Assembly (NCBI GenBank): GCA_020438425.1
Contig: JAGQUQ010000002.1
Location: 1-64,000 of the forward strand
Direction of reading: 5' to 3'
DNA length: 64,000 nucleotides
From: Solirubrobacterales bacterium
GTDB taxonomy: Bacteria > Actinomycetota > Thermoleophilia > Solirubrobacterales > 70-9
A program made the position numbers and the translations under genes. The number at the start of each line of letters is the position of its first letter. Within the stretch, counting starts at the first letter, position 1. Shown here piece by piece: positions 20,593 through 50,940 of the stretch. Below the pieces are notes generated by a model. The model was given only the letters and a program-made list of their open reading frames with translations. It was not told where the DNA came from and made no database searches.

Positions 20593-22331
<1,739 letters not shown>

Positions 22332-22335
<4 letters not shown>

Positions 22336-22556
22336 CAGATCACCGAAACTTCCGTGACCGTTGCCCGGTCCACGAGCTCGGTCGCGGCCAGCCAAGTGAG
22401 ACCTGACCCGATCTCCACCAGATACGCCACAACCGCCTCCCGGGCCTGTACAGCGGACCTACACATGACCGTGAAGGTCGGGCCACTTACAGGTCCGAGG
22501 TCCACAGACCAGGCTTGGGCGCTCGGAGGGGGTACTTGTCGCGTCGTGTCAACCAT
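22332..22556 (-). CDS. Small hypothetical protein coupled to the recombinase
   Basis: 74 residues from ATG 22556; its TGA overlaps the recombinase GTG as GTGA. Sequence W-S-V-D-L-G-P-V-S-G-P-T-F, then A-V-Q-A-R-E-A-V-V-A-Y-L-V-E and a final T-E-V-S-V-I-W. It could assist recombination directionality, an inference from position only. An inverted repeat lies immediately before its start. Confidence 0.5.
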
Positions 22557-27553: not shown

Positions 27554-28132
27554 ATGTCCGAGCATCCCGAGACTGCGATCAACACTCGATCAGGTTTAGT
27601 TCTCGACTTTGCCGCCCCGTCGCCTGAGTCGATCAGGATCGAAGACATCGCAGGAGGTCTATCTCTTGCCCCTCGATTCGGCGGGCAAGCCACAAGGTTT
27701 CGGTCAGTCGCCGAGCATGCGATTTGTGTGGCCAATCTTGTCGAAGCTATGGGACACCAAGACCTTGCCCTCGCGGCCCTACATCACGACTCGCACGAAG
27801 CCTACGCGTGCGACATACCCAAACCACTCAAGCGTCTCCTGGAACCTGAATACACCGACATCACCGACCGACTCGACCGGGCAATCGCGGCTGCTCTGGA
27901 GTTGCCGGTCTTGGACCTCGAGGACGAGCGGGCTCGCCCGGTCAAGGATGCCGACGACGCGATGCTGGTTCTCGAGGCAGAGGAGTATCTCGCGGGCGAT
28001 CCTCCGGATAAGGACTTGCCTACCGGGTTGCTTGACCTCGCCAGGGTCACAGTTGACGTGAAGAGCTCGATGACGCCCGACGAAGCGAGAGACGCCTTCC
28101 TCGCATTCCACGAACGCCTTACGCAGCCGTAA
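27554..28132 (+). CDS. HD-domain phosphohydrolase, YfbR-like nucleotidase
   Basis: 192 residues. Metal-binding pattern: R-F-R-S-V-A-E-H (first His), A-L-H-H-D-S-H-E-A-Y (His-Asp) and a later Asp in D-A-D-D-A-M-L-V-L-E-A-E. This is the layout of YfbR-type 5'-deoxynucleotidases and phage HD hydrolases. It may act on deoxynucleotide monophosphates. A truncated second copy lies at 37226-37627. The convergent 250-residue gene follows 11 bases after it in both copies. Confidence 0.82.
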   Translation: MSEHPETAINTRSGLVLDFAAPSPESIRIEDIAGGLSLAPRFGGQATRFRSVAEHAICVANLVEAMGHQDLALAALHHDSHEAYACDIPKPLKRLLEPEYTDITDRLDRAIAAALELPVLDLEDERARPVKDADDAMLVLEAEEYLAGDPPDKDLPTGLLDLARVTVDVKSSMTPDEARDAFLAFHERLTQP

Positions 28133-28143
28133 CCCACTGTGGC

Positions 28144-28896
28144 CTACACCTCCGGCGGCGACAGTGGCTCTAGCAATTCCCGGGCGTCGATTGGCTGGTT
28201 TCGCTCGAACCACGCGTCGAGCGAGGTGCGGGTCAACCGTTGCTCGGCAGCGGCCCTGCGGGGTTGGTGTGGCCGTTCGCCAGGCGAGACACCTCGATCC
28301 GGGTCCAGCAATTCGGCGTCAGCGCGATCGCAGAGATCCCCGAGGGCTATCCGGGCGGTGCTGTCGGCGCTGAATGCGGGTGGCAGGACGAGGGCGAGGG
28401 GTCGGGCGAATTCGGCTCTGAATCCTTCCGGGTAAAGCTCGATCCGGCCCCAAGCTTCAACCACGCCGGTCACATAGAGATCCTGGTTTGCTGGTTTGTC
28501 GCCGCTCCATAGGTACCACGGGGGCACTAGCCAAGGGTGGTAGGCGCGAAGGCCACATTCACAATCTTTGCCAGGGGGTTCATGAAGTTCGGACACATCC
28601 GAAAGACAACGAGCCTGGGTGACACTTCCGTCTATTTCCCAACTCGGCGAACTTGCCTTGATGGTCCGGAGGGGTTTGAGCTCGTCGAGCGATTGGGGTA
28701 CTAGCCACTGCCGGACTCCCAGAATCGCCCCCGTGAACTGCGGAGTTGTCTCGTCGCGACCCGCATCTCGATCTTCCGAAACCGGATCAAGGCTCCAACG
28801 GACGTCTCGACGGGAACTAGCCTGCGGTTCGACGAGGATGGTGCGGGATGGGCTGTGGGCCCCGATGCGGGTCCCGAGCGTAAGCGGGTACGTCAT
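28144..28896 (-). CDS. Island hypothetical protein with C-x-C-G motif (copy 1)
   Basis: 250 residues from ATG 28896, preceded by GGAGGA. Motifs T-G-A-I-L-G-V-R-Q-W-L-V, C-E-C-G-L-R-A-Y-H-P, T-G-V-V-E-A-W-G-R and A-L-G-D-L-C-D. The Cys pair followed by A-Y-H suggests a metal site. A close paralogue is at 37640-38413, and both are convergent with an HD gene. Function unknown. Confidence 0.72.
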   Translation of the reverse strand: MTYPLTLGTRIGAHSPSRTILVEPQASSRRDVRWSLDPVSEDRDAGRDETTPQFTGAILGVRQWLVPQSLDELKPLRTIKASSPSWEIDGSVTQARCLSDVSELHEPPGKDCECGLRAYHPWLVPPWYLWSGDKPANQDLYVTGVVEAWGRIELYPEGFRAEFARPLALVLPPAFSADSTARIALGDLCDRADAELLDPDRGVSPGERPHQPRRAAAEQRLTRTSLDAWFERNQPIDARELLEPLSPPEV

Positions 28897-29211
28897 GCGT
28901 ATTCCTCCTTTCAGATGGCTGTCCGAGACGGAGGGCCGAGTCGGAAAGCTATAGACGGGCTTCCTCTCCCGTCGTCCCTACGGACGACAATGGGACGATC
29001 CCGTTGCCGCCTCCTCGCTCGCACCTGGCTCGGCAGCCCGAGAACGTGACCGTTCGTGGATGTTGACGGGAGACTTCGGACGAATCCGGGAAGCCGTTCG
29101 GCTATTCGAATGGTCGAGGAAGCCAGGAGAGCCTCGGAGATACCTTCCGTGGCCTTGGAAGCGTATGTCCGGCATCGAATGAAAGATCGGACAGGTCTAC
29201 ACACGGTCGGG
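28897..29211. other. Intergenic region without a supported gene
   Basis: Overlapping open frames on both strands here look like shadows. It holds a 21-base sequence (29133-29153, CTCGGAGATACCTTCCGTGGC) that recurs exactly at 34656-34676 within a longer imperfect match of about 45 bases. In both places one frame reads R-R-Y-L-P-W, so it may be a relic of a small gene. Confidence 0.5.
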
Positions 29212-29877: not shown

Positions 29878-30276
29878 GGCGCTCCCTTCGTTCTCCGTGG
29901 GCAAATCTTGGCAATCTCGACTGGCGGCCTGGGGACGGAATCATCCCTGGACATTGCTTGTCAAGTGCGCCGGACAGGTAATCCACACGAAACCAGTCGG
30001 GGAGCTCGAGGTCAGGTGGAGCCCGTCGACTAGGGCTTTACGCTCAACTCCGGGGATCACGGCTGGTTGATCTAGACGGTCTTCCACTGGCATCGAGCTA
30101 CAACCAGACTCCCGCCGGGCTACGGTCCAGAAGGTCAGATTGTTGCCCCCAGATCGCGATGCGGTTGGGCACCGGTTGACTCTCCGGCTGTCGGCAGTCC
30201 ATGGTGAAAGCAGGTGAAGATTAGTCTTGGACCGGAAGCGTGGCCTCGTCCGACTCCGTCCGTAGTATCGAGCGTC
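29878..30276. other. Promoter region between the small-ORF operon and the methyltransferases
   Basis: No supported gene. It must hold divergent promoters. A TAGTAT hexamer eight bases before GTG 30277 is a candidate -10 for a leaderless methyltransferase transcript. Confidence 0.45.
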
Positions 30277-31434
30277 GTGGTTGGTGAAGCGGGAACAAGC
30301 AAAGTAGTGGCGGTGGACCTCTTTGCCGGGGCAGGAGGCTTAGCCGTCGGGGCTGAGCAGGCAGGGTGCGACGTTCGGCTTTCGGTCGACAATGACCGGT
30401 GGTCCTGCGAGACCCTGCGTGAGAACCATTCCCATGAGGTTTGGAACGAAGACATCACTGCGATTCGTGGTCGAGATCTGCGCGAGGCGTTGGACCTATC
30501 GGTTGATGAAAACCTCGTTATCTTGGGAGGGCCACCGTGCCAGCCGTTTTCAAAGGCGGCCTACTGGGTCGACGAGGGCAAAGAGGCGGCGTTTCGGCGT
30601 GCTCGGGCCGCTGGTAAGACAGTTGATCGTCCATCCGAGAGTCCGGAAGTTCGTCCGGATGAGCGGAGGAGTCTCGTCGACGAGTACTGGCGGCTCGTAC
30701 TTGAATCTAAGGCCGACGGGTTCGTCTTCGAGAACGTGCGCAGCATTACTCATCCGAGGCACCGACCTGTCTTGGAACATCTCATTTCCGAAGCCAATCG
30801 AACTGGGTACGAAACTACGCTGTTCTTTGCGAACGCCGCAGAGCACGGAGTGCCGCAGCGACGGCAGAGGGTCTTTCTCATGGGTTCGAAGATCTCGAAG
30901 CCCGCGGCTCCGGCAAAGTCTCATGCGCCAGCGGAGAAGTCAGACGAGTTGGAACTCCTGTCTTTTGAGCCAGTAGGTCCTGCGCTCCAACCATTCGCTG
31001 GTAAGGAGTATTTCGAGCCCGAGGAAGTCGTTACGGGAAAGTGGGCCGAACACTTGAGAACCGTTCCGCCTGGCTGGAACTACAAGGCTCACACAGCGTG
31101 GGGTGGACACCCCAATCCGACTTGGGAAACCGAGACCAGATTCTGGAACTTCCTCTTGAAACTCGATCCAGACTTGCCATCATGGACGATTAACGCGAGT
31201 CCCGGACCTTGGACGGGACCATTTCATTGGGATTCGAGGCGCCTCAGGGTTCCCGAGCTCGCGGCTCTTCAGACTTTTCCGCCGGGTTATCAGTTCATTG
31301 GCCCTCGCCGCGAACGAGTCCGGCAGATCGGCAACGCAGTTCCGCCCTTGCTGGGTGAAGCCGTGGTCAGAGGGGTGGTGGCAACGTTTGGCGCTGAAAG
31401 ATCGGCAGCCGCCCCTGAGCTTGTGTCGGCATGA
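30277..31434 (+). CDS. C5-cytosine DNA methyltransferase 1
   Basis: About 385 residues from GTG 30277 (GTG 30214 would add 21 residues lacking family similarity). SAM motif I V-D-L-F-A-G-A-G-G-L; catalytic motif IV G-G-P-P-C-Q-P-F-S-K; motif VI F-E-N-V; motif VIII Q-R-R-Q-R-V-F; motif X near I-G-N-A-V-P-P. The target-recognition region holds F-L-L-K-L-D-P-D-L-P-S-W-T-I, shared with the next gene. It overlaps the second methyltransferase by ATGA. Modifies cytosine at a specific site; the sequence recognised cannot be deduced. Confidence 0.93.
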   Translation: MVGEAGTSKVVAVDLFAGAGGLAVGAEQAGCDVRLSVDNDRWSCETLRENHSHEVWNEDITAIRGRDLREALDLSVDENLVILGGPPCQPFSKAAYWVDEGKEAAFRRARAAGKTVDRPSESPEVRPDERRSLVDEYWRLVLESKADGFVFENVRSITHPRHRPVLEHLISEANRTGYETTLFFANAAEHGVPQRRQRVFLMGSKISKPAAPAKSHAPAEKSDELELLSFEPVGPALQPFAGKEYFEPEEVVTGKWAEHLRTVPPGWNYKAHTAWGGHPNPTWETETRFWNFLLKLDPDLPSWTINASPGPWTGPFHWDSRRLRVPELAALQTFPPGYQFIGPRRERVRQIGNAVPPLLGEAVVRGVVATFGAERSAAAPELVSA

Positions 31435-32498
31435 AGCTGAAGGCAGTAAGTCTTTATTCGGGTTGTGGTGGTCTCGATCTCGGGATGCATGAAGCAGGAT
31501 TCGACGCCGTAGTTGCGTCTGATCTGGACCCGTATTGCGCGAAGAGTTACGAGAGGAACTTTCCGAGGGTCCCTTTCATCTGCGGCGATGCTGCAGACTT
31601 GGACGGGAAGAGCCTGGCGAAAGCCTCGGAAGGTGCCACTACCGAATCGATTGATCTCCTCGTTGGCGGCCCTCCGTGTCCGCCGTTTTCCAAATCGCGT
31701 TTTTATCGTAAGGACAAACCGCGAGCGTTGGAAGATGCTGTGGGCGATAGGACGATCCGCGCGTACTTAACGGTGCTGGAAGCCGTTCGTCCCCGTGCAT
31801 TTCTGCTCGAGAATGTTGCCGGACTCGCTTACAAGGTCCACCAAAGTGCTCTCGAGTTGATTTTCCAGACGGCACGAAATCTGGGGTACTCGATTAATTC
31901 CGAAGTCTTGAATTCGGCTGACTACGGTGTCCCTCAGATGAGGCAGAGATTTTTCGTGGTGGGAACTCTGGACGGAGAGTTCGAGTTCCCCAGCCCCACT
32001 CACGCAAAGCCGGGGTCAGATTCGGACCTTCCGGCTTGGGTCACCGCGGGCGAAGCTATCGGAGACCTGGATACTGAGGAGAACGCCGATGACAGCGGTC
32101 ACTTTGCTGGCGGGAAACACCACGAGCTCCTGAAACAGATTCCTCCGGGGGACAATTACCTCTACTTCACCGAGAAGCGGGGGCACCCAGATCCCATTTT
32201 CAAGTGGCGGTCTCGCTACTGGTCGTTCTTGCTCAAGCTGAGTCCGGACCTGCCGTCCTGGACGATCCAGGCGAGGCGCTCCAACAACATGGGTCCGTTG
32301 CATTGGAGAAACCGAATTCTGAGGATCGAAGAAGTGAAGAGGCTTCAAACGTTTCCTGACGATTGGTATTTGGAGGGGAATGTAGAGCGGCAGTGGCGCC
32401 AGATCGGCAACGCCGTGCCGCCGCATCTCGCCCGGCAACTCGGGGTTAGCCTTGCAGATCACCTTCTGGCTACACGTTTCGAAAGGCGAGCCGCGTAG
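31431..32498 (+). CDS. C5-cytosine DNA methyltransferase 2
   Basis: 355 residues. Motif I S-L-Y-S-G-C-G-G-L-D-L-G; motif IV G-G-P-P-C-P-P-F-S-K, where Pro replaces the common Gln after Cys, as in some Dcm-like enzymes; motif VI L-L-E-N-V; motif VIII P-Q-M-R-Q-R-F-F; motif X I-G-N-A-V-P-P-H-L. It shares the F-L-L-K-L-S-P-D-L-P-S-W-T-I segment with the first enzyme, suggesting related target recognition. Two C5 enzymes in one system are typical when the recognition site is asymmetric and each strand needs its own enzyme. Confidence 0.93.
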   Translation: MKLKAVSLYSGCGGLDLGMHEAGFDAVVASDLDPYCAKSYERNFPRVPFICGDAADLDGKSLAKASEGATTESIDLLVGGPPCPPFSKSRFYRKDKPRALEDAVGDRTIRAYLTVLEAVRPRAFLLENVAGLAYKVHQSALELIFQTARNLGYSINSEVLNSADYGVPQMRQRFFVVGTLDGEFEFPSPTHAKPGSDSDLPAWVTAGEAIGDLDTEENADDSGHFAGGKHHELLKQIPPGDNYLYFTEKRGHPDPIFKWRSRYWSFLLKLSPDLPSWTIQARRSNNMGPLHWRNRILRIEEVKRLQTFPDDWYLEGNVERQWRQIGNAVPPHLARQLGVSLADHLLATRFERRAA

Positions 32499-32516
32499 TC
32501 ATGGAGCCGGTGGTCA

Positions 32517-33974
32517 ATGAGGGAATGGATTTCGATGGCATCAGATAGCCGTCCGAAGCTTCCAGCGGCGAACGAGTTCACGCCAGGGCAACTTGGCGGG
32601 GCGGAAGCCGTGTTCGATCTCCTCCAGATCATTGTGGATCAAAAGGGAGATCGAGCAGCGATAGCGGAGCAAATACGACAGAAGTGGTTTCTCGCTAGCG
32701 CACAGGAGCGAAAGGACCCCGCTGAACGAGAGGAGCAGCAAATCAAGCGGGCGCTCAATGTAGTTACGGGTATGAGGCAATACGGCTTGCTCGAGGCTTC
32801 GACTGATCCGCTTGTGCTCTCTTCCCTCGGCAAGGAGATCCTCGGCCACAAAGGAAAGCAACAGGAGGCGCTTCGGATCTTCGCGTCCTTCTTGCTGAGG
32901 GAGCGAAATGGGCTAGAACTCGCCGAGGTTGCGAGGTCGGTCGGGGCCAGAGACGGGATCGTGACCAAGAAGTCGGTTGACGCCGAGTTGCGCAGCCGCG
33001 GTTTTCGGGTCCCGACAAATAGTTCTTATTCAGGGAAACTCCGGCAATGGCTGGAGGCTGCCGCCGTTGTTGATGGCAGTTGGAACGTGGACGAAGAGCT
33101 TCTCGAAGACCTTTCGGGTGTCGCTCCATCTGAGTTGGACGCGTGGCGAGCGTTGACCGATGAGCAGAAGGCCACCCTAGAAGTTCTGAGAGTTCGGGCC
33201 GAAGGCGACCTGACACCGATCCCGTCCAGCCAACTGTTGGACCTCCTGGACCAGCGAGGAGTTGAGTTCGACCGAGGCCAAGTCAGGAAGAAGATCTATG
33301 ACCCTCTCAAGGAAGCGGGCTGGATCGAACACGAAGTGGGTTCGAGCGGGAGAGGCGGCAAGGGCGGGCTCATAACTCCGACTCAAAAGACTCTCGAACT
33401 AGACGCCGAGTTTCTCGGCGCTCTCCAGCTAGGAGATCTACCAGCCGATTTACAGAAGCAGCTGGATACGCCCACCGAGAAAATCATCAAAGGGCTTGGA
33501 TCCAAGGCCACCGGTAAGAAGGGGATCGCCCTTGAACTGCTCGCACTCAGACTCGCCTCAGACATTGGGCTGCTCCCAGTGGAATTGAGGCAGAGGGGCG
33601 TGCAGACCGGTGGCGCAGAGGTTGATTTGGTCGCAGAAGGGGCGCATCTCCACTTTTCGCGGTGGCTGTTCCAGTGTAAGAACCAAGTGTCTAACGTTGG
33701 CCTGTCCGTCTTGGCGAAAGAGGTTGGAATGGCCACCCTGCTGAAGGCTCAGGTTGTTGTCATCGTCACGACAAACAAGTTCGCTGGTTCTGTCCGGGAA
33801 TTCGCAAAGCAGGCTGCGGAGAGTTCCGCCATCCAGATCATCCTCCTGGACGGCGGTTCCTTGGACGCCTATAGGGCAAAGGGACCGAAGGCCCTTCGCG
33901 ATGAGTTGCACGGATACGCTCGGCAGGCGCTAACCCTGAAGCGAAACCAACTCCACGAGGTCCCCACGGAATAG
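32517..33974 (+). CDS. Mrr-like restriction endonuclease of the two-methyltransferase system
   Basis: 485 residues; ATG 32517 used, with ATG 32535 as an alternative. The N-terminal half is helical and likely winged-helix DNA-binding (A-E-V-A-R-S-V-G-A-R, L-L-D-L-L-D-Q-R-G-V-E-F). The C-terminal half is a Mrr-type PD-(D/E)XK fold: G-I-A-L-E-L-L-A-L, T-G-G-A-E-V-D-L-V (catalytic Asp), F-Q-C-K-N-Q (Gln-x-Lys), then V-V-I-V-T-T-N-K-F. It follows the methyltransferases by 18 bases. The likely role is cleavage of unmodified DNA as a type II-like partner. Confidence 0.85.
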   Translation: MREWISMASDSRPKLPAANEFTPGQLGGAEAVFDLLQIIVDQKGDRAAIAEQIRQKWFLASAQERKDPAEREEQQIKRALNVVTGMRQYGLLEASTDPLVLSSLGKEILGHKGKQQEALRIFASFLLRERNGLELAEVARSVGARDGIVTKKSVDAELRSRGFRVPTNSSYSGKLRQWLEAAAVVDGSWNVDEELLEDLSGVAPSELDAWRALTDEQKATLEVLRVRAEGDLTPIPSSQLLDLLDQRGVEFDRGQVRKKIYDPLKEAGWIEHEVGSSGRGGKGGLITPTQKTLELDAEFLGALQLGDLPADLQKQLDTPTEKIIKGLGSKATGKKGIALELLALRLASDIGLLPVELRQRGVQTGGAEVDLVAEGAHLHFSRWLFQCKNQVSNVGLSVLAKEVGMATLLKAQVVVIVTTNKFAGSVREFAKQAAESSAIQIILLDGGSLDAYRAKGPKALRDELHGYARQALTLKRNQLHEVPTE

Positions 33975-34398: not shown

Positions 34399-34463
34399 CC
34401 TTTGATCATGACTGACCGAGACACTGGTCGCGCGAAACACCTACTTGGGAGTCCTAACGCCAC

Positions 34464-34514
34464 CCGCTCCAGTATCCGGGCGTCCCCCTGAGAGACGAAG
34501 CGGGCCGGGTAGTC
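34464..34514 (+). repeat. Island repeat B (att-like)
   Basis: Closest to repeat C: CCGCTCCAGTATCCG is identical in both, then GCGTC and TGAGAGACGAAGCGGGCC. The core ends GGGTAGTC instead of CCCGCTAT. Minus-strand reading gives Y-P-A-R-F-V-S-Q-G-D-A-R-I-L-E-R. Confidence 0.7.
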
Positions 34515-34764
34515 GTTTCCAGGGAGACCGTCTGTCAGAGCGGAGTATTCGAAGGTACCGTCCCTATTCGCCCAGTTGTCTCAGGGCGACACGAGCCCTT
34601 CCTTGAGTCTTGAGGGTTTCTCGGGTATTCGAGTATTTCGAGAGCAAGGAGGAGGCTCGGAGATACCTTCCGTGGCTTCGGGAATGCCTTCGGAAATCGA
34701 GGCGGTGGCTTGAATCGCTGTTACGATGCTCCGTAGTCAGCGTTGCCTATGGGAAGAGGACAGG
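34515..34764. other. Region with relic of a short repeated sequence
   Basis: No supported gene. It contains the second copy of the 21-base repeat (34656-34676) found at 29133. One frame reads F-E-Y-F-E-S-K-E-E-A-R-R-Y-L-P-W, possibly a remnant small protein. It also provides the leader of the secreted-protein gene. Confidence 0.4.
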
Positions 34765-36849
34765 ATGTCACTGGTACGCAGGGAGAATTTGAGGTCCGGG
34801 ATCGTGGCCGCTCTTGTGGTTGCGGGAGTGCTGTGTGTCGGCCTTGCGGGCGCGACGGCTCAGGCTGACGCAGCTTCGAAGCCAAAGGTGAGCGCGTCGT
34901 TTGGTGTCGCTGGCTCGCAGGTGAAGGTGTCGGGCACAGTCTCGAAGGGCGCCCCCAGGAAGGCTCCGCCTCGTAAGAAGTGGAAGGCGGCTCTGGAGCA
35001 GCAGGTCGGAAAGCGTTGGGTGAAGCGCAAGACCGGCAAGTTGTCGAAGGGCAGGAAAGGTTCGAGCAAGTACCGGCTCGCCTGGAAGGCCCCTAGCTCC
35101 TTGAAGTCGGGCAAGTTCCGGGTGAGGTTGTTTGCCGGGAAGCGCACGATCTCGTCTTCGAAGGTGAAGAAGCTGACTTTCAGTTCTCAGGTTCCGGCTC
35201 CGAAGGTCAGTGAAGTTGTTTCGTCTTCGGTTCAGAAGCTCCCCTCGCAGGGCGATATGACTCTCGTGCTTTCCGGCAACCGCAATTTCAAGGCTGGGGA
35301 GTATCTGGCGGCAGCTCCGGGTGACAGTGCCCCGGATGGCTTTCTGCTGAAGGTGGTGAGTTCGAGTAGTTCTGGCGGCCAGACGACGGTGAAGGTGAAG
35401 CCGGGTTCGCTTTATGACGCGGTCCCGAACGGACAGCTTGCGCTTGCCACAGGCGATCTTCAGGCGGCGACCCCGCAGAACGGTGACGCGAAGAAACTCC
35501 TCCGAGCACTCGACACAACCGGCGGCGCTTCGAACTACGCGAATGTTCCGTTTTCGAAGCCGGTGACCTGTACCGGCTCAGGGTCGATGACCCTGGACGG
35601 CAACTTCGATGCGAGCCTTGCCCCCAACTTTGATTTGAAGTGGAGCAAACGGTTCGGAATCCCCACCGGAATCGATTCCGCCAGGGCCACGGTTGATGCG
35701 AGCCTGTCCGCTGATGCTTCAGCCGAGCTTTCAGCCGCGGCCAGCTGCACCCTGACGCCAATCACGCTCCTCTCACCAAAGTTCACTTTCGTGGTCGTGG
35801 TGGGACCGGTCCCTGTTCCGGTCACGGTCTCTCTGCCAATCGTTCTCGAGGCATCGGCCTCGGTGAGTGGGTCGGTGACGATCTCGGCTGACGCGAGCGT
35901 TCAGGGATCCATCGGTCTTGACTACCGCGATGGGGATGTGTCAGCGGTCAAGGAGTTTTCTTCGGACGCGAACCTGTCCCATGAGGTTGAAGCCCAGGCC
36001 AACGCCGAAGCCTTGATCGGCCCGGACATCGAAGTTGAAGCGGGCTGGAAAATCCCCGTGATTGGCGGGGTCGCGGCCGAGGTAGAGATCAACGCTAGAA
36101 CAGGCCTCCGACTTGAATACGTGCTGGGCAACTCACCACCAGGGAAGCTCTGCGTACCCTTGAAACTTGGCGGCGAAGTCGAATTCGATACACCGATCGG
36201 TGACATCGAGAAGGGGCTGCCTGAATACAGCACCGACATTAAATGCGTTGAGTTTGGTGGATCTACCTTCAGTATCCAAGGGAGTATCGATGCTCATGGA
36301 GACTATTCGTGGCCTGGCGTCAATACAACTGTAGGAACGAATGATGCAAGTTGGACCGTTGACTCTTCAGTACCTACGGGGACTGATTCAAACTACTACG
36401 TCCTAGGACATTCTTCTGAGTGGAATGACTTCTATCGGACCACATCGGCGTGCGGATTCAACCCCGACAGTTGGAGCGAGAGAAGCTCGAGCGGATCTCA
36501 AACGGTACTCAGTGGCGAAGGTAACATTGGTGCCAACCCCGTTGACTCGACTCTTGGCATGGCGAGAGGTTCAGACGGCTACGTTTTCCACTTGGGCACA
36601 TCGCCTGGAGTAGAGAACCAGAGGGGATCCGTCTGCGGATTCCCGGAGACGACTGCTTCAGGAACAGGATGGTCATACATCGCAGGTTCGATAGGAAATA
36701 CGGGTGCTCCGGCCGTCTACGACGGAAGTGGGCATTTGTCTGGATCCAGAACCGGGTACGTAGACCACATGGATTACGAAATATCATGGGAATTTGAATT
36801 GGAGTGTCCGTCGGGCGACCCACCAACCGTCAACTGGCTTTGTCCTTAG
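34765..36849 (+). CDS. Large secreted protein, Ser/Ala-rich beta domains (island cargo)
   Basis: 694 residues from ATG 34765 (GAGGACAGG upstream). A signal peptide (I-V-A-A-L-V-V-A-G-V-L-C-V-G-L-A-G, cleavage near A-Q-A-D-A) precedes a Lys/Arg-rich beta region (to about 150), a long Ala/Ser/Val-rich region alternating hydrophobic residues (A-T-V-D-A-S-L-S-A-D-A-S-A, E-A-S-A-S-V-S-G-S-V-T), and a C-terminal domain with several Cys (C-G-F-N-P, V-C-G-F-P-E, L-E-C-P). Codon use becomes more AT-rich in the last 250 codons. Possible adhesin or surface protein; no known family recognised. It is alone between repeats B and C. Confidence 0.75.
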   Translation: MSLVRRENLRSGIVAALVVAGVLCVGLAGATAQADAASKPKVSASFGVAGSQVKVSGTVSKGAPRKAPPRKKWKAALEQQVGKRWVKRKTGKLSKGRKGSSKYRLAWKAPSSLKSGKFRVRLFAGKRTISSSKVKKLTFSSQVPAPKVSEVVSSSVQKLPSQGDMTLVLSGNRNFKAGEYLAAAPGDSAPDGFLLKVVSSSSSGGQTTVKVKPGSLYDAVPNGQLALATGDLQAATPQNGDAKKLLRALDTTGGASNYANVPFSKPVTCTGSGSMTLDGNFDASLAPNFDLKWSKRFGIPTGIDSARATVDASLSADASAELSAAASCTLTPITLLSPKFTFVVVVGPVPVPVTVSLPIVLEASASVSGSVTISADASVQGSIGLDYRDGDVSAVKEFSSDANLSHEVEAQANAEALIGPDIEVEAGWKIPVIGGVAAEVEINARTGLRLEYVLGNSPPGKLCVPLKLGGEVEFDTPIGDIEKGLPEYSTDIKCVEFGGSTFSIQGSIDAHGDYSWPGVNTTVGTNDASWTVDSSVPTGTDSNYYVLGHSSEWNDFYRTTSACGFNPDSWSERSSSGSQTVLSGEGNIGANPVDSTLGMARGSDGYVFHLGTSPGVENQRGSVCGFPETTASGTGWSYIAGSIGNTGAPAVYDGSGHLSGSRTGYVDHMDYEISWEFELECPSGDPPTVNWLCP

Positions 36850-36910
36850 CCCTCAATCACCGAATTCGGAGTCCAACTCAGGGCGGCCTTCTCCGCGCGA
36901 AATTCTAGAT

Positions 36911-36974
36911 TCAGGCTGCCAACCGCTCCAGTATCCGAGCGTCTCCTTGAGAGACGAAGCGGGCCCCCGCTATG
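36911..36974 (+). repeat. Island repeat C (att-like), junction of two elements
   Basis: Contains CCGAGCGTC, TGAGAGACGAAGCGG and the full core GCCCCCGCTATG, which matches tRNA-fMet and its first following bases. The minus-strand reading gives I-A-G-A-R-F-V-S-Q-G-D-A-R-I-L-E-R and a stop at 36911-36913. Its left part is the right end of element 1; its right part starts the recombinase remnant of element 2. Confidence 0.8.
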
Positions 36975-37218
36975 TTCGTCAGGGTGACGGTGTCGCCCTT
37001 CGCGAATAGGTCCTCGGAGTTGTTTAGTGCCTTCGCGATGTCCTCTGCGATGGTCGCGGAAATCTCTACGCGGCCTTCCCGTTTATCGAAGGCGATTTGA
37101 AGGTCGAAGGCCTCGTAGACCTGCCGTCTGATTTGCGGGGATGCGTTTCGGAGGCTCTGGCTGAGGTCCGGGAGGGATTCGAGGCGGGCGACTAACTCCG
37201 CTTCTTCGGTGTCGTCCC
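36911..37218 (-). pseudogene. Serine recombinase remnant (C-terminal ~100 codons)
   Basis: The minus-strand frame reads L-P-D-L-S-Q-S-L-R-N-A-S-P-Q-I, then Q-V-Y-E-A-F-D-L-Q-I-A-F-D-K-R-E and V-E-I-S-A-T-I-A-E-D-I-A-K, clearly homologous to the last 80-100 residues of the recombinase at 20626-22335. The remainder is deleted. The tail differs: I-A-G-A-R-F-V-S-Q-G-D-A-R-I replaces the tRNA-encoded G-F-E-P-A-T-F-G-L. At about 37219 the remnant is joined to a truncated HD gene. Confidence 0.85.
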
Positions 37219-37225
37219 GTGCGTC

Positions 37226-37627
37226 GCCCTAGTTGTCGAGGCTATGGGGCACCAAGACCTCGCCCTGGCGGCGCTTCATCACGATTCGCACGAGGCTTAC
37301 GCATGCGATATCCCCAAACCACTCAAGCGTCTCTTGGAACCTGAATACACCGCCATCACGGATCGACTCGACCGGGCAATCGCGGTCGCGCTGAACTTGC
37401 CGATCTTGGACCTCGAGGACCAGCGGGCTCGTCCGATCAAGGACGCCGACGACGCCATGCTGGTTCTCGAGGCAGAGGAGTATCTCGCGGGCGCTCCTCC
37501 GGATAGGGACTTGCCTACCGGGTTGCTTGACCTCGCGAGGGCCACAGTGGAGGTGAAGGCTTCGATGGCGTCCGACGAAGCGAGAGACTCCTTCCTCGCG
37601 TTCCATGAGCGCCTTACGCAGCCGTAA
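37226..37627 (+). pseudogene. Truncated second copy of the HD phosphohydrolase
   Basis: Near-identical to residues about 60-192 of the HD protein at 27554-28132 (A-M-G-H-Q-D-L-A-L-A-A-L-H-H-D-S onward). The N-terminal third, including the first His-bearing segment R-S-V-A-E-H, is missing and replaced by the recombinase remnant. A start at ATG 37244 gives 127 residues retaining only the His-Asp pair, so activity is doubtful. Confidence 0.85.
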
Positions 37628-37639
37628 CCCGAGTGAGTT

Positions 37640-38413
37640 CTACATCTCCGGTGGCGACAGTGGCTCAAGGACCTTCTGATCGGTGCTTGATCGGTTTCGC
37701 TCGAACCAGTCATCGAGGACGGTCCGGGTCAACCGTTGCTCGGCAGCGGCCCCGCGGGGTTGGAGTGGCCGTCCGTCAGGCGGGACACCCTGGTCTGGAT
37801 CGAGCAACTCGGCGTCAGCGTGATCGCAGAGATCCCCGAGTGCTATCCGGGCGGTGCTGTCGGCGCTGAATGCGGGTGGCAGGACGAGGGCGACGGGTCG
37901 GGCGAAGGCGGCTCTGAACCCTTCCGGGTAGAGCTCGATTCGGCCCCAGGCTTCGACCACGCCAGTCAGGTAGCGATTCCCGTTTGCTGCCTTGTCGCCG
38001 CTCCAGAAGTACCACGGCGGCATCAGCCATGGGTGGTAGGCACGAAGGCCACATTCACAGTTCTTGCCAGGGATTTCATGAAGTTTGTTCACGACCTTCA
38101 TACAACGAGCTCGGGTGGCACTCCCGTCTATCTCCCAGCTAGGCAAATTCAACTTGAGCGATCCGAGCGGCTTGAGCTCGTCCAGGGATGGAGGCACGAG
38201 CCACTGCCGAACGCCCAGGATTGTTCCAGTGAACCGCGGGGCCAGGTCGTCGCTCCCCTCGACTGGACCTTCGGTCTGATCTCCCGATGCCGGTTCGAGG
38301 CCCCAACGGGCTTCTTCTCGATCGGAACCGGCGCTTGGTTCGACGAGGATGGTGCGGGATGGATCGCGTGCCCATATTCGGGTTCCGAGCGTACGCGGGG
38401 GACTCACAGGCAT
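37640..38413 (-). CDS. Island hypothetical protein with C-x-C-G motif (copy 2)
   Basis: 257 residues from ATG 38413 with GGAAGGAGG upstream (a further upstream Met exists). Homologous throughout to the 28144-28896 protein: T-L-G-T-R-I, T-G-T-I-L-G-V-R-Q-W-L-V, C-E-C-G-L-R-A-Y-H-P, T-G-V-V-E-A-W-G-R. It remains intact although its HD neighbour is truncated, which suggests it is useful alone. An IS3 element begins about 120 bases upstream. Confidence 0.75.
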   Translation of the reverse strand: MPVSPPRTLGTRIWARDPSRTILVEPSAGSDREEARWGLEPASGDQTEGPVEGSDDLAPRFTGTILGVRQWLVPPSLDELKPLGSLKLNLPSWEIDGSATRARCMKVVNKLHEIPGKNCECGLRAYHPWLMPPWYFWSGDKAANGNRYLTGVVEAWGRIELYPEGFRAAFARPVALVLPPAFSADSTARIALGDLCDHADAELLDPDQGVPPDGRPLQPRGAAAEQRLTRTVLDDWFERNRSSTDQKVLEPLSPPEM

Positions 38414-38562
38414 TCCTCCTTCCGAGGTTCGGTCCGATTCGGAACGATTGAGACGGGGCACCGCACGAAATCAGATGCAGGCCTCTCGCATAGTCGCACC
38501 CTCGTGACCACGCCCTCGGACGCGGTCTGAATGATTCGCCCCGGGTTTTGTGGAGACGGTTT

Positions 38563-39464
<902 letters not shown>

Positions 39465-39466
<2 letters not shown>

Positions 39467-39788
39467 ATTTCCCCGGTGGACGCGGGTCGAGCTCCCGCGC
39501 GAAAAAAGCCGAAGCCGCCTTCAAAATCTCGTTGGCGCGCCTCAGCTCCCGGTTTTCACGTTTCAGGTCCTTGATCTCCTGCCTCTCAGCCGTGGACTCG
39601 CCAGCCCTCGATCCGTGATCGATCTCGTGCTGCCTAACCCAACGCCTGAGAGTTTCCGGGGTCATCCCCGACTTGCCCGCCACCGACTCAATACACGCCC
39701 ACTGCGACGAATACTCGCCCTGGTGCTCGAGCACCAGGGCGACCGTGCGCTCCCTGATCTCCCGCGGATACCTCTTCGAACTTGCCAT
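39465..39788 (-). CDS. IS3 orfA transposase DNA-binding subunit
   Basis: 107 residues from ATG 39788. HTH_Tnp_1 domain (Y-P-R-E-I-R-E-R-T-V-A-L-V, T-P-E-T-L-R-R-W-V-R-Q) then a leucine-zipper-like coiled coil (I-K-D-L-K-R-E-N-R-E-L-R-R-A-N-E-I-L-K). It ends where orfB should begin. Intact, but its partner is broken. Confidence 0.9.
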
Positions 39789-39913
39789 ACGACCGATCCT
39801 CTCAAACAGAATGGCCTCCAACAAACCCGGGGCGAATCAATCTTCGTCATCGCTGCTTTGTCGGGAACCACTTGGTCGAGTGAGTCTGCCCCAACCAACC
39901 CTAGGGGGTCTGG

Positions 39914-42085: not shown

Positions 42086-42150
42086 TCAGGCTGGGAAGTT
42101 GCCGCAAATTCGGGCGTCACCCTGAGAAACGGATCGGGCCCCCGCTATTC
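42086..42150 (+). repeat. Island repeat D (att-like)
   Basis: ATTCGGGCGTCACCC, TGAGAAACGGATCGGGCC and the core CCCGCTATTC. The minus-strand reading I-A-G-A-R-S-V-S-Q-G-D-A-R-I ends with a stop at 42086-42088 in the same relative place as repeats C and F. Confidence 0.8.
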
Positions 42151-42234: not shown

Positions 42235-43476
42235 TCAAGACCACAGCCCTCTTGCCGGTACGGCGGCGAGGCGATCGCCGAACGGGAGCGTGTCGGCACC
42301 GGTGTACAGAACCACGCCGGCTTTGAAGCGGTCGCCGAGCTTGTCGCGGAGGTAGCGCAGTCCGGCGAAATCCCGGGTCCCAGGGGTTGCTCCGGCCTTG
42401 ACTTCGACGCCGACGATTTCGCCGCTGCGGCGCTCCAGGATTACGTCCACCTCGCGCTGCTGCTTGTCGCGGTAGTGGAAGAGCTGGACGGGTTCGTCCG
42501 CCCAGTCGGCCTGGCGCAACAGCTCCATCGCTACGAAGCTCTCGAACAGCGGTCCGGCGAGGTCACCATCTTCTGTGATGCGGCGTTCGTTCGCACCGAT
42601 CAGATACGCCATCAGACCACTGTCTACGATGTGCAGCTTGGGACTCTTGATCTGACGGCTGCCCAGATTGACATGCCACGGTCTGAGCTGGCGGACGAGG
42701 AATAGATCTTCAAGGACTTTGGTGTGGGCACGGGCTGTGTTGGTGTCAACTCCGAGATCGGTGGCCATGCCATGGAAACTCGCCAGACCACCCGACCGCG
42801 AGGCGATTACGAAGAGCAGACGCTCTACGTTCCCGGTGTTGCGGACATTTGCGATGTCGTCGAGATCGCGGCCGATGATCGACGCGACATAGCTGGCGAA
42901 GAAGCGGGATCGGCCGCGGGAGCTTCGTCCTTGCAGTTCCGGATAGCCACCGGTGACCAGCATTTCGGCTAGGGCGCCGCGGCCAACGTCCGATCCGGTG
43001 ACTTGCGGGAAGCGGCCGTTGAACAATTCGTCGATGAACGTCTCGGAATGGTTGTGTAACTCACCCTGCGATAGCGGCCAGAGGTTGAGGTACTCGATCC
43101 GTCCGGGAAGCGCGTCCGCAACGGTCGGGAGTGTGAGGATGTTCGCCGATCCCGTGAGCAGGAACTGGCCTCGGGAGGGGTCGTTGTCGAGGCGCTGTTT
43201 GATGGCGAGGAGTAAGCCGGGTGCTCGCTGCACCTCGTCGATCACCGCAGGCCCGGAGATCCCGGCGACAAAGCCGGTCGGATCCTCCCTCGCGGCGTTT
43301 GCGGTGGCTTCGTCATCAAGGCTGATGAGATGAGCCGGGTATGCGTTGGAGGCCAGGTCAGTAGCGAGAGTGCTCTTGCCGACCTGCCGTGCGCCCAGCA
43401 GCGCGACGGCGCGACTCTCGGCCAGTGCCTCCAGAAGAAACGGGCGGAGATGGCGGGCGTGGAGTTTTGGGGCCAT
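42235..43476 (-). CDS. AAA ATPase with DUF4143 nuclease-like domain
   Basis: 413 residues from ATG 43476 (an ATG-preceded frame extends to 43497). Walker A G-A-R-Q-V-G-K-S-T-L near residue 30; Walker B V-I-D-E-V-Q-R-A-P; sensor L-L-T-G-S-A-N-I. The C-terminal DUF4143 domain has I-V-D-S-G-L-M-A-Y, F-E-S-F-V-A-M-E-L and the PD-(D/E)XK-like R-E-V-D-V-I-L-E with V-E-V-K-A. The family is common in accessory DNA; a toxin or defence role is often suggested but not established. A single-gene module between repeats D and H. Confidence 0.9.
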   Translation of the reverse strand: MAPKLHARHLRPFLLEALAESRAVALLGARQVGKSTLATDLASNAYPAHLISLDDEATANAAREDPTGFVAGISGPAVIDEVQRAPGLLLAIKQRLDNDPSRGQFLLTGSANILTLPTVADALPGRIEYLNLWPLSQGELHNHSETFIDELFNGRFPQVTGSDVGRGALAEMLVTGGYPELQGRSSRGRSRFFASYVASIIGRDLDDIANVRNTGNVERLLFVIASRSGGLASFHGMATDLGVDTNTARAHTKVLEDLFLVRQLRPWHVNLGSRQIKSPKLHIVDSGLMAYLIGANERRITEDGDLAGPLFESFVAMELLRQADWADEPVQLFHYRDKQQREVDVILERRSGEIVGVEVKAGATPGTRDFAGLRYLRDKLGDRFKAGVVLYTGADTLPFGDRLAAVPARGLWS

Positions 43477-43505
43477 GCTCTCGACCCTAGCAACCAAGCC
43501 GGACG

Positions 43506-46272: not shown

Positions 46273-46334
46273 CTATTCAGCTATTCGTTCGACAACTCGG
46301 GTGTCACCCCGAGAAACGAATCGGACCGAGTATT
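46273..46334 (+). repeat. Island repeat E (att-like)
   Basis: ACTCGGGTGTCACCCC, GAGAAACGAATCGG and a diverged core ACCGAGTATT. Minus-strand reading R-F-V-S-R-G-D-T-R-V-V-E-R-I-A-E then stop at 46273-46275. It starts 4 bases after the operon's last stop. Confidence 0.75.
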
Positions 46335-47284: not shown

Positions 47285-47349
47285 TCAGACGGCCACTCGC
47301 TCCCGAATTCGGGCATCACCCCGAGAAGCGGATCCTGCCCCCGCTATTC
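47285..47349 (+). repeat. Island repeat F (att-like), best match to the tRNA 3' end
   Basis: Includes 16 bases (47332-47347) identical to tRNA-fMet 20652-20667, preceded by GGGCATCACCCCGAGAAGCGG. Minus-strand reading I-A-G-A-G-S-A-S-R-G-D-A-R-I-R-E-R-V then stop at 47285-47287. Confidence 0.88.
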
Positions 47350-50890: not shown

Positions 50891-50940
50891 ATTGCCACAT
50901 CGCGTGTCACCCCGAGAGACCGATCAGGTCCCCGCTATTC
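50891..50940 (+). repeat. Island repeat G (att-like), probable right end of island
   Basis: GCGTGTCACCCCGAGAGACCGATCAGG followed by the core TCCCCGCTATTCACCG, shared with repeat D. The minus-strand tail frame is interrupted by a stop, consistent with greater age. Beyond it lie genes without island traits. Confidence 0.75.

Follow-up and report, generated by a model that had tools for sequence, protein, structure and literature searches.

An integration-dependent C-terminus predicted for a large serine recombinase whose attachment site overlaps the end of its own gene

Described systems with attachment sites inside genes

The closest known system is DsiB of the Dehalococcoides ssrA islands, a serine recombinase whose gene overlaps attL with its 3' end (PMC3146451). 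A companion small serine recombinase, DsiA, and a conserved integration module of six genes also belong to this system. The islands occur in tandem, some of them without an integration module, and DsiB alignments are divergent in the 3' portion; in 2011 the authors raised the question of whether only the circle or a neighboring island gives the full 3' end (PMC3146451). The locus analyzed here lies in a 64,000-nucleotide stretch of a Solirubrobacterales genome (contig JAGQUQ010000002.1 of GCA_020438425.1, positions 1 to 64,000), hereafter the window. As with DsiB, the recombinase overlaps attL at a structural RNA gene and the modules are tandem, but the target is tRNA-Met instead of ssrA (tmRNA), and the excised-state tail is codon-constrained, coincides with a mirrored half-site, and ends like a degron.

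The classic example of a C-terminus changed in this way is IntP/Int of the Myxococcus phage Mx8 (Tojo 1996, Magrini 1999; PMC6070905), in which attP lies in the integrase gene, and integration gives a new C-terminus. The recombinase studied here also has attP in its reading frame, so that integration would rewrite its C-terminus, but a changed activity was shown for Mx8, whereas the present case is known from sequence alone. Mx8 is listed in the Islander paper among the tyrosine integrases extending across attP, and our protein has serine recombinase domains; therefore, it would work like the Mx8 type without being a member of it. In mycobacteriophage BPs and its relatives, attP lies within the repressor gene, and the excised form carries an ssrA-like tag that is removed by integration (PMC4557955, PMC8092301). 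Experiments with BPs showed that the tag, present in the excised-form repressor only, causes degradation and that the A135E substitution near the end stabilizes the protein (PMC4557955). The likeness consists of attP within a gene and may extend to the tag: tag-like ends, resembling the LAA end of the host tmRNA tag, are enriched here, although not present on every tail. In BPs, however, it is the repressor that is switched, and integration is carried out by tyrosine recombinases, whereas here attP lies at the end of the recombinase gene itself, and degradation, demonstrated in BPs, would be an extrapolation.

Serine recombinases acting at tRNA genes were called rare in one report (PMC3218068) and not known in another (PMC4383910). 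For phiRSM1 and the Mycobacterium AICEs, serine-recombinase integration into a tRNA gene was described, at the 3' end for phiRSM1 (PMC3218068, PMC3816273). phiRSM1 differs from our case in having a small serine recombinase and attP between two genes, and the passages compared describe no C-terminal swap. As far as the compared literature goes, three features are new: the excised-state tail is under measurable coding constraint, it overlaps a mirrored half-site, and its end is degron-like.

Recombinase genes and attachment-site arms in the window

The tRNA-Met (CAT) gene was found by ARAGORN at 20593-20666 on the plus strand; its 3' part represents the attB half retained at attL. The 3' end of an intact large serine recombinase gene (20626-22395, minus strand), encoding 589 aa in the integrated form, is located inside the tRNA complement. 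The protein has the C-terminus IAGAGFEPATFGL and reads ...VVPKDIAGAGFEPATFGL followed by a stop codon; the 3' end within the tRNA complement gives ...GLAVVPKDIAGAGFEPATFGL and a stop. The tRNA call and the translation confirmed the original prediction that the integrated recombinase ends in GFEPATFGL encoded by the complement of tRNA-Met. The protein contains PF00239 (Resolvase, residues 27-174, E 5.7e-23) followed by PF07508 (Recombinase, residues 212-327, E 1.1e-20), the order of domains expected of large serine recombinases. The zinc beta ribbon PF13408 scored 21.7 bits, which is under the curated cut-off of 25.3.

The P' arm of this recombinase, TGTCCTTCGGGACCACCGCC (20667-20686, plus strand), doubles as its codons ...VVPKD. 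In a mirror test, no mirrored partner for the P' motif TCGGGACCAC was found among the window P arms tested, so that repeats A-F were rejected as its attP partners; a full att site matching this motif is present in the relative G003. Since repeats A-F are unlike the P' arm, the proposed rebuilding of attP by joining repeat A, B, or C to the recombinase gives a hybrid and not a demonstrated attP. Joining to repeat A produces a longer tail without the AA end, and therefore repeat A should not be taken as the native attP. The own attR arm of the intact recombinase was either displaced or replaced by later insertions or is located elsewhere.

Searches of IMG/VR and of phages revealed no circular form or close relatives, a plasmid search yielded distant relatives only, and a scan of genome contigs found just one relative, with 26% identity. 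The distant recombinases of Alphaproteobacterial plasmids (Haematobacter, Paracoccus, Bradyrhizobium, and Novosphingobium; L048-L051) also end in the tRNA-Met complement, with GFEPVTFRL, GFEPTTFRL, or GFEPMTFRL, indicating that this architecture is widespread. L048 additionally contains a nested att-like repeat within its C-terminal codons. In the relatives G002 and G003 (L034, L035, and L045), the recombinase adjoins only the 3' half of tRNA-Met, starting from the anticodon loop, with unrelated sequence in front; this half is possibly an att copy from another element targeting the anticodon loop.

A second recombinase gene is represented by a 3' remnant at 36956-37279 (minus strand), a pseudogene with one internal stop and 55% identity to residues 476-582 of the intact protein. 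It is in frame with a tail, and the reading at 36911-37220 (minus strand) terminates in IAGARFVSQGDARILERLAA and a stop; the remnant reads ...VTLTNIAGARFVSQGDARILERLAA, and its stop codon is the complement of 36911-36913. The peptide originally read here, A-G-A-R-F-V-S-Q-G-D-A-R-I-L-E-R, was right but omitted the final LAA (...ILERLAA). The excised-state tail codons, ARFVSQGDARILERLAA plus TGA (36911-36964, minus strand), are simultaneously a P arm with its motif at 36941-36950. The attP-like inverted repeat at 36941-36988 consists of GTCTCCTTGA (36941-36950), a core with CCCCGCTA at 36965, and TCAGGGTGAC (36979-36988). Inverted-repeat arms around a core are the expected attP layout of a serine integrase. 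Because the anatomy of 36911-37218 fits this layout, we infer that it is a P.P' junction of tandem modules, comprising the right-hand P arm of one module and the decayed recombinase gene of the next.

Five further P arms were found on the plus strand. The arm at 42093-42147, with the tail ARSVSQGDARICGNFPA, is joined to a terminator-bearing flank (CCCCGCTATTCACTGAAAGCCCCGCTGATTGCGGGG) and is a probable attR. The arm at 46280-46333 has the core GACCGAGTATT and the tail VRFVSRGDTRVVERIAE, and that at 47292-47346 has the tRNA core and the tail AGSASRGDARIRERVAV. Repeat A (34459-34530) departs from the others in its core (GGCCGGGTAG) and is mirrored on the right by the arm CCAGGGAGAC, and the arm at 50903-50937 is decayed, with the tRNA core. 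Repeats B-F had originally been read as encoding the alternative tail, with the stop at a similar place in C, D, and F. The stop is exactly 17 codons past the core in the copies at 36918, 42093, 46280, and 47292, but not in repeats A and F (34459 and 50903): the former reads through this position, and the latter has lost the tail to an in-frame stop at its start (AGT*SVSRGDTR). The window sites scored 25-62 versus 6.9 for the best match in the shuffled contig, with a matrix trained on these and related sites.

The cores of copies 34459 and 46280 differ from the tRNA core (GGCCGGGTA and GACCGAGTA). These sites belong to a second att-like class, also present in G003, G213, G049, and G020, which has the same P arm and tail, the cores GGCCGGGTATTCG, GGCCGCCGATTCG, and GGCCACCTATCGG, and the right mirrored arm one base nearer. 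In several of them, the flank is non-coding but conserved, and a stop immediately precedes the core; the class may represent attP of recombinase-less modules. The possibility that sites with the cores GGCCGGGTA, GGCCGCCGATT, and GGCCACCTATC are ends of another coding gene was rejected because the core is directly preceded by a stop in several cases.

DNA and protein constraint on the excised-state tail

Each repeat is one attachment-site arm. Where a site is complete, whether in the window or in a relative, its arms form an inverted repeat with GGGCCCCCGCTAT at the center, as in GTCACCCTGA...TCAGGGTGAC, GTCCCCCTGA...TCAGGGGGAC in G002, and TGGTCCCGA...TCGGGACCA in G003. The arms fit their own partners better than the partners of other sites, both for sites with the tRNA core (p = 0.002) and for the rest (p = 0.001). 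In relatives with the recombinase at attL, the farther arm is mirrored at 11 of 12 bases in G086 (p = 0.002), 10 of 12 in G227 (p < 0.002), and 9 of 12 in G036 (p = 0.03).

A DNA-only profile of the P arm matched about 100 sites, distributed over 37 of the 232 genomes of the order and often arrayed in the same orientation, and 70 arms from about 20 related genomes were read in detail. The codon-level constraint that the original prediction expected across homologues was tested in two ways. For codons 9-13, a set of 58 sequences selected with a filter on two translated positions had a dN/dS-like ratio of 0.38 in frame versus 1.2 and 1.8 off frame. Since this set was chosen partly on translated residues, a third-position test was run on 51 indel-free arms chosen by DNA score alone. 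Third codon positions varied most, both in codons 0-14 (p = 0.0005) and in codons 9-14, outside the mirrored DNA motif (p = 0.0014); these p values ignore the relatedness of sites, and the column comparison stays within one sequence set. An in-frame stop at codon 17 or 19 was found in 45 of the 70 sites (TGA in 33, TAG in 8, and TAA in 4), and the other frames were without any such stop position. At several junctions in different genomes, recombinase codons ending in [DN]-I-A-G continue into the tail without a change of frame; at G002:C152, the open frame before the tail extends over 232 codons. Thus, in-frame readings on both sides of the crossover place attP inside the recombinase reading frame, as judged from genomic sequence and not from an observed circle.

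The codon, stop, and frame tests rule out chance or a translation artifact, and the third-position excess, the stop clustering, and the in-frame junctions together indicate that protein constraint acts on the arm in addition to DNA constraint. That the excised form would encode a longer conserved tail, swapped by integration, is supported by the codon constraint and the junctions; we regard this C-terminal swap as very probable and selection acting on the excised-state tail as nearly as well founded.

The tails have two main lengths, both mostly ending in aliphatic-Ala-[Ala/Val/Thr]. Of the 25 short tails, 12 have the end [VLIMF]AA, as do 9 of the 18 long ones; among 516 long ORFs of the same contigs, the share is 1.2%. 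Once arms less than 15% different had been removed, the end was present in 13 of 24 tails. All four Ala codons are in use at the tail end, and in most long tails the aliphatic-Ala-Ala end lies beyond the search-profile match. Among the tails whose stop is at codon 17 or 19, roughly one in two has this end, and about half are without AA. The tmRNA tag of the host genome is GDEHSYALAA, and that of most examined relatives is ADHEFALAA; more distant tRNA-Met recombinases end otherwise (ADLAL and VRELHER). These ends tentatively suggest that the excised-form tail is a ClpXP-type, ssrA-like degron removed by integration, an interpretation to which we give slightly less than even weight. Because the C-terminus is degron-like, stability is a likelier guess than activity for any switch.

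The tail could instead serve recombinase function, for example, in synapsis or in distinguishing attP x attB from other pairings, so that the integrated ending would change how active or how specific the enzyme is, as was reported for Mx8 Int, and degradation would play no part. This is consistent with the conservation of R-I-[LV]-E-R inside the tail, besides its last residues, and with the report that the altered Mx8 integrase stays active with changed specificity (PMC6070905). It leaves the aliphatic-Ala-Ala end at two tail lengths unexplained, and we consider it a minority possibility. An explanation by DNA constraint alone, in which the arms are kept as attP half-sites and the common peptide and stop merely follow from this, is already disfavored and appears improbable. 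It accounts for the mirrored, pair-specific arms, and much of S-Q-G-D is already specified by the motif TCAGGGTGAC; however, the third-position pattern extends past the mirrored motif, the stops cluster at two positions with three different stop codons in the coding frame only, and the same kind of end occurs at two tail lengths. The conserved peptide, predicted as a coding signal, is upheld by the codon constraint but in part reflects DNA recognition, since the arm is half of an inverted-repeat attP. Least probable is a neutral by-product, with attP just overlapping the gene end and neither C-terminus of importance: the annotated catalytic and DNA-binding domains do finish well ahead of the core, and unrelated lineages also have tRNA-complement endings, but the codon constraint indicates that at least the excised form is selected.

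A C-terminal swap with dual-coded DNA, for which a degron is the likeliest role, is thus the interpretation we moderately favor.

Tandem modules and the proposed exchange of tails

The window would accordingly contain mobile modules in an array, brought into the tRNA-Met 3' end by a large serine recombinase with an attP that extends over the last part of its gene. As the sequence shows, the P' arm and crossover core are the last common codons of the recombinase, and the P arm past the core is both a mirrored DNA half-site and the codons of a conserved tail of 17-19 residues. In the integrated state, the tRNA gene replaces the P arm, giving the enzyme its GFEPATFGL end. Newcomers may insert beside the tRNA or at P.P' junctions, and a displaced recombinase gene would then borrow the P arm of its neighbor as a tail. 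Such borrowing is needed because the arms of other-core sites are codon-constrained as well, though little or no recombinase reads into them; P arms would stay coding even in recombinase-less modules if the recombinases of neighbors borrow them. The enzyme made from the circle may be short-lived owing to the aliphatic-Ala-Ala degron, and that made after integration more stable. For the array with borrowing, we see the chances as balanced.

One small module, at 34507-36964, lies between two P arms, with its boundaries deduced from the att arms. It contains no recombinase and one long gene (34726-36849; 707 aa) without a Pfam match, and appears to be non-autonomous.

Several other features of the array were observed. 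A gene pair is present in two direct copies (27725-28932 and 37220-38443), which come after the modules of the intact recombinase and of the remnant, respectively. The copies are 72-88% identical, indicating that the two modules are related elements of different age. A probable IS3-like insertion sequence (38529-39842), in which 40-base inverted ends with 78% complementarity flank overlapping transposase-like ORFs, is located inside the older module. The module adjoining the intact recombinase also has a probable restriction-modification cargo (30214-33974), made up of two C5-cytosine methylases and, after them, an Mrr_cat-domain protein. Another array module encodes an ATPase-like protein (42235-43497) with a strong match to the candidate defense family PDC-S01 (PADLOC, E 1.7e-160).

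The broadest reading, which we offer as speculative, is that the half-sites are exchangeable C-terminal degron cassettes: the state of the element (circle, tRNA-proximal, or displaced) would set the stability of the recombinase, and every module, even a recombinase-less one, would be selected to carry a coding half-site. The results provide comparative evidence for the suggestion left open for DsiB in 2011, that an overlapping serine integrase acquires the complete tail solely in the excised or displaced state, and they present one stretch of DNA under DNA-binding and protein-coding constraint together. Should the tail be a degron, the lifetime of the integrase would depend directly on its integration state, a form of regulation known for phage repressors. 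Annotations of serine-integrase genes that come from integrated elements, with GFEPATFGL or a similar end, may miss the native C-terminus, which matters for rebuilding these enzymes as tools.
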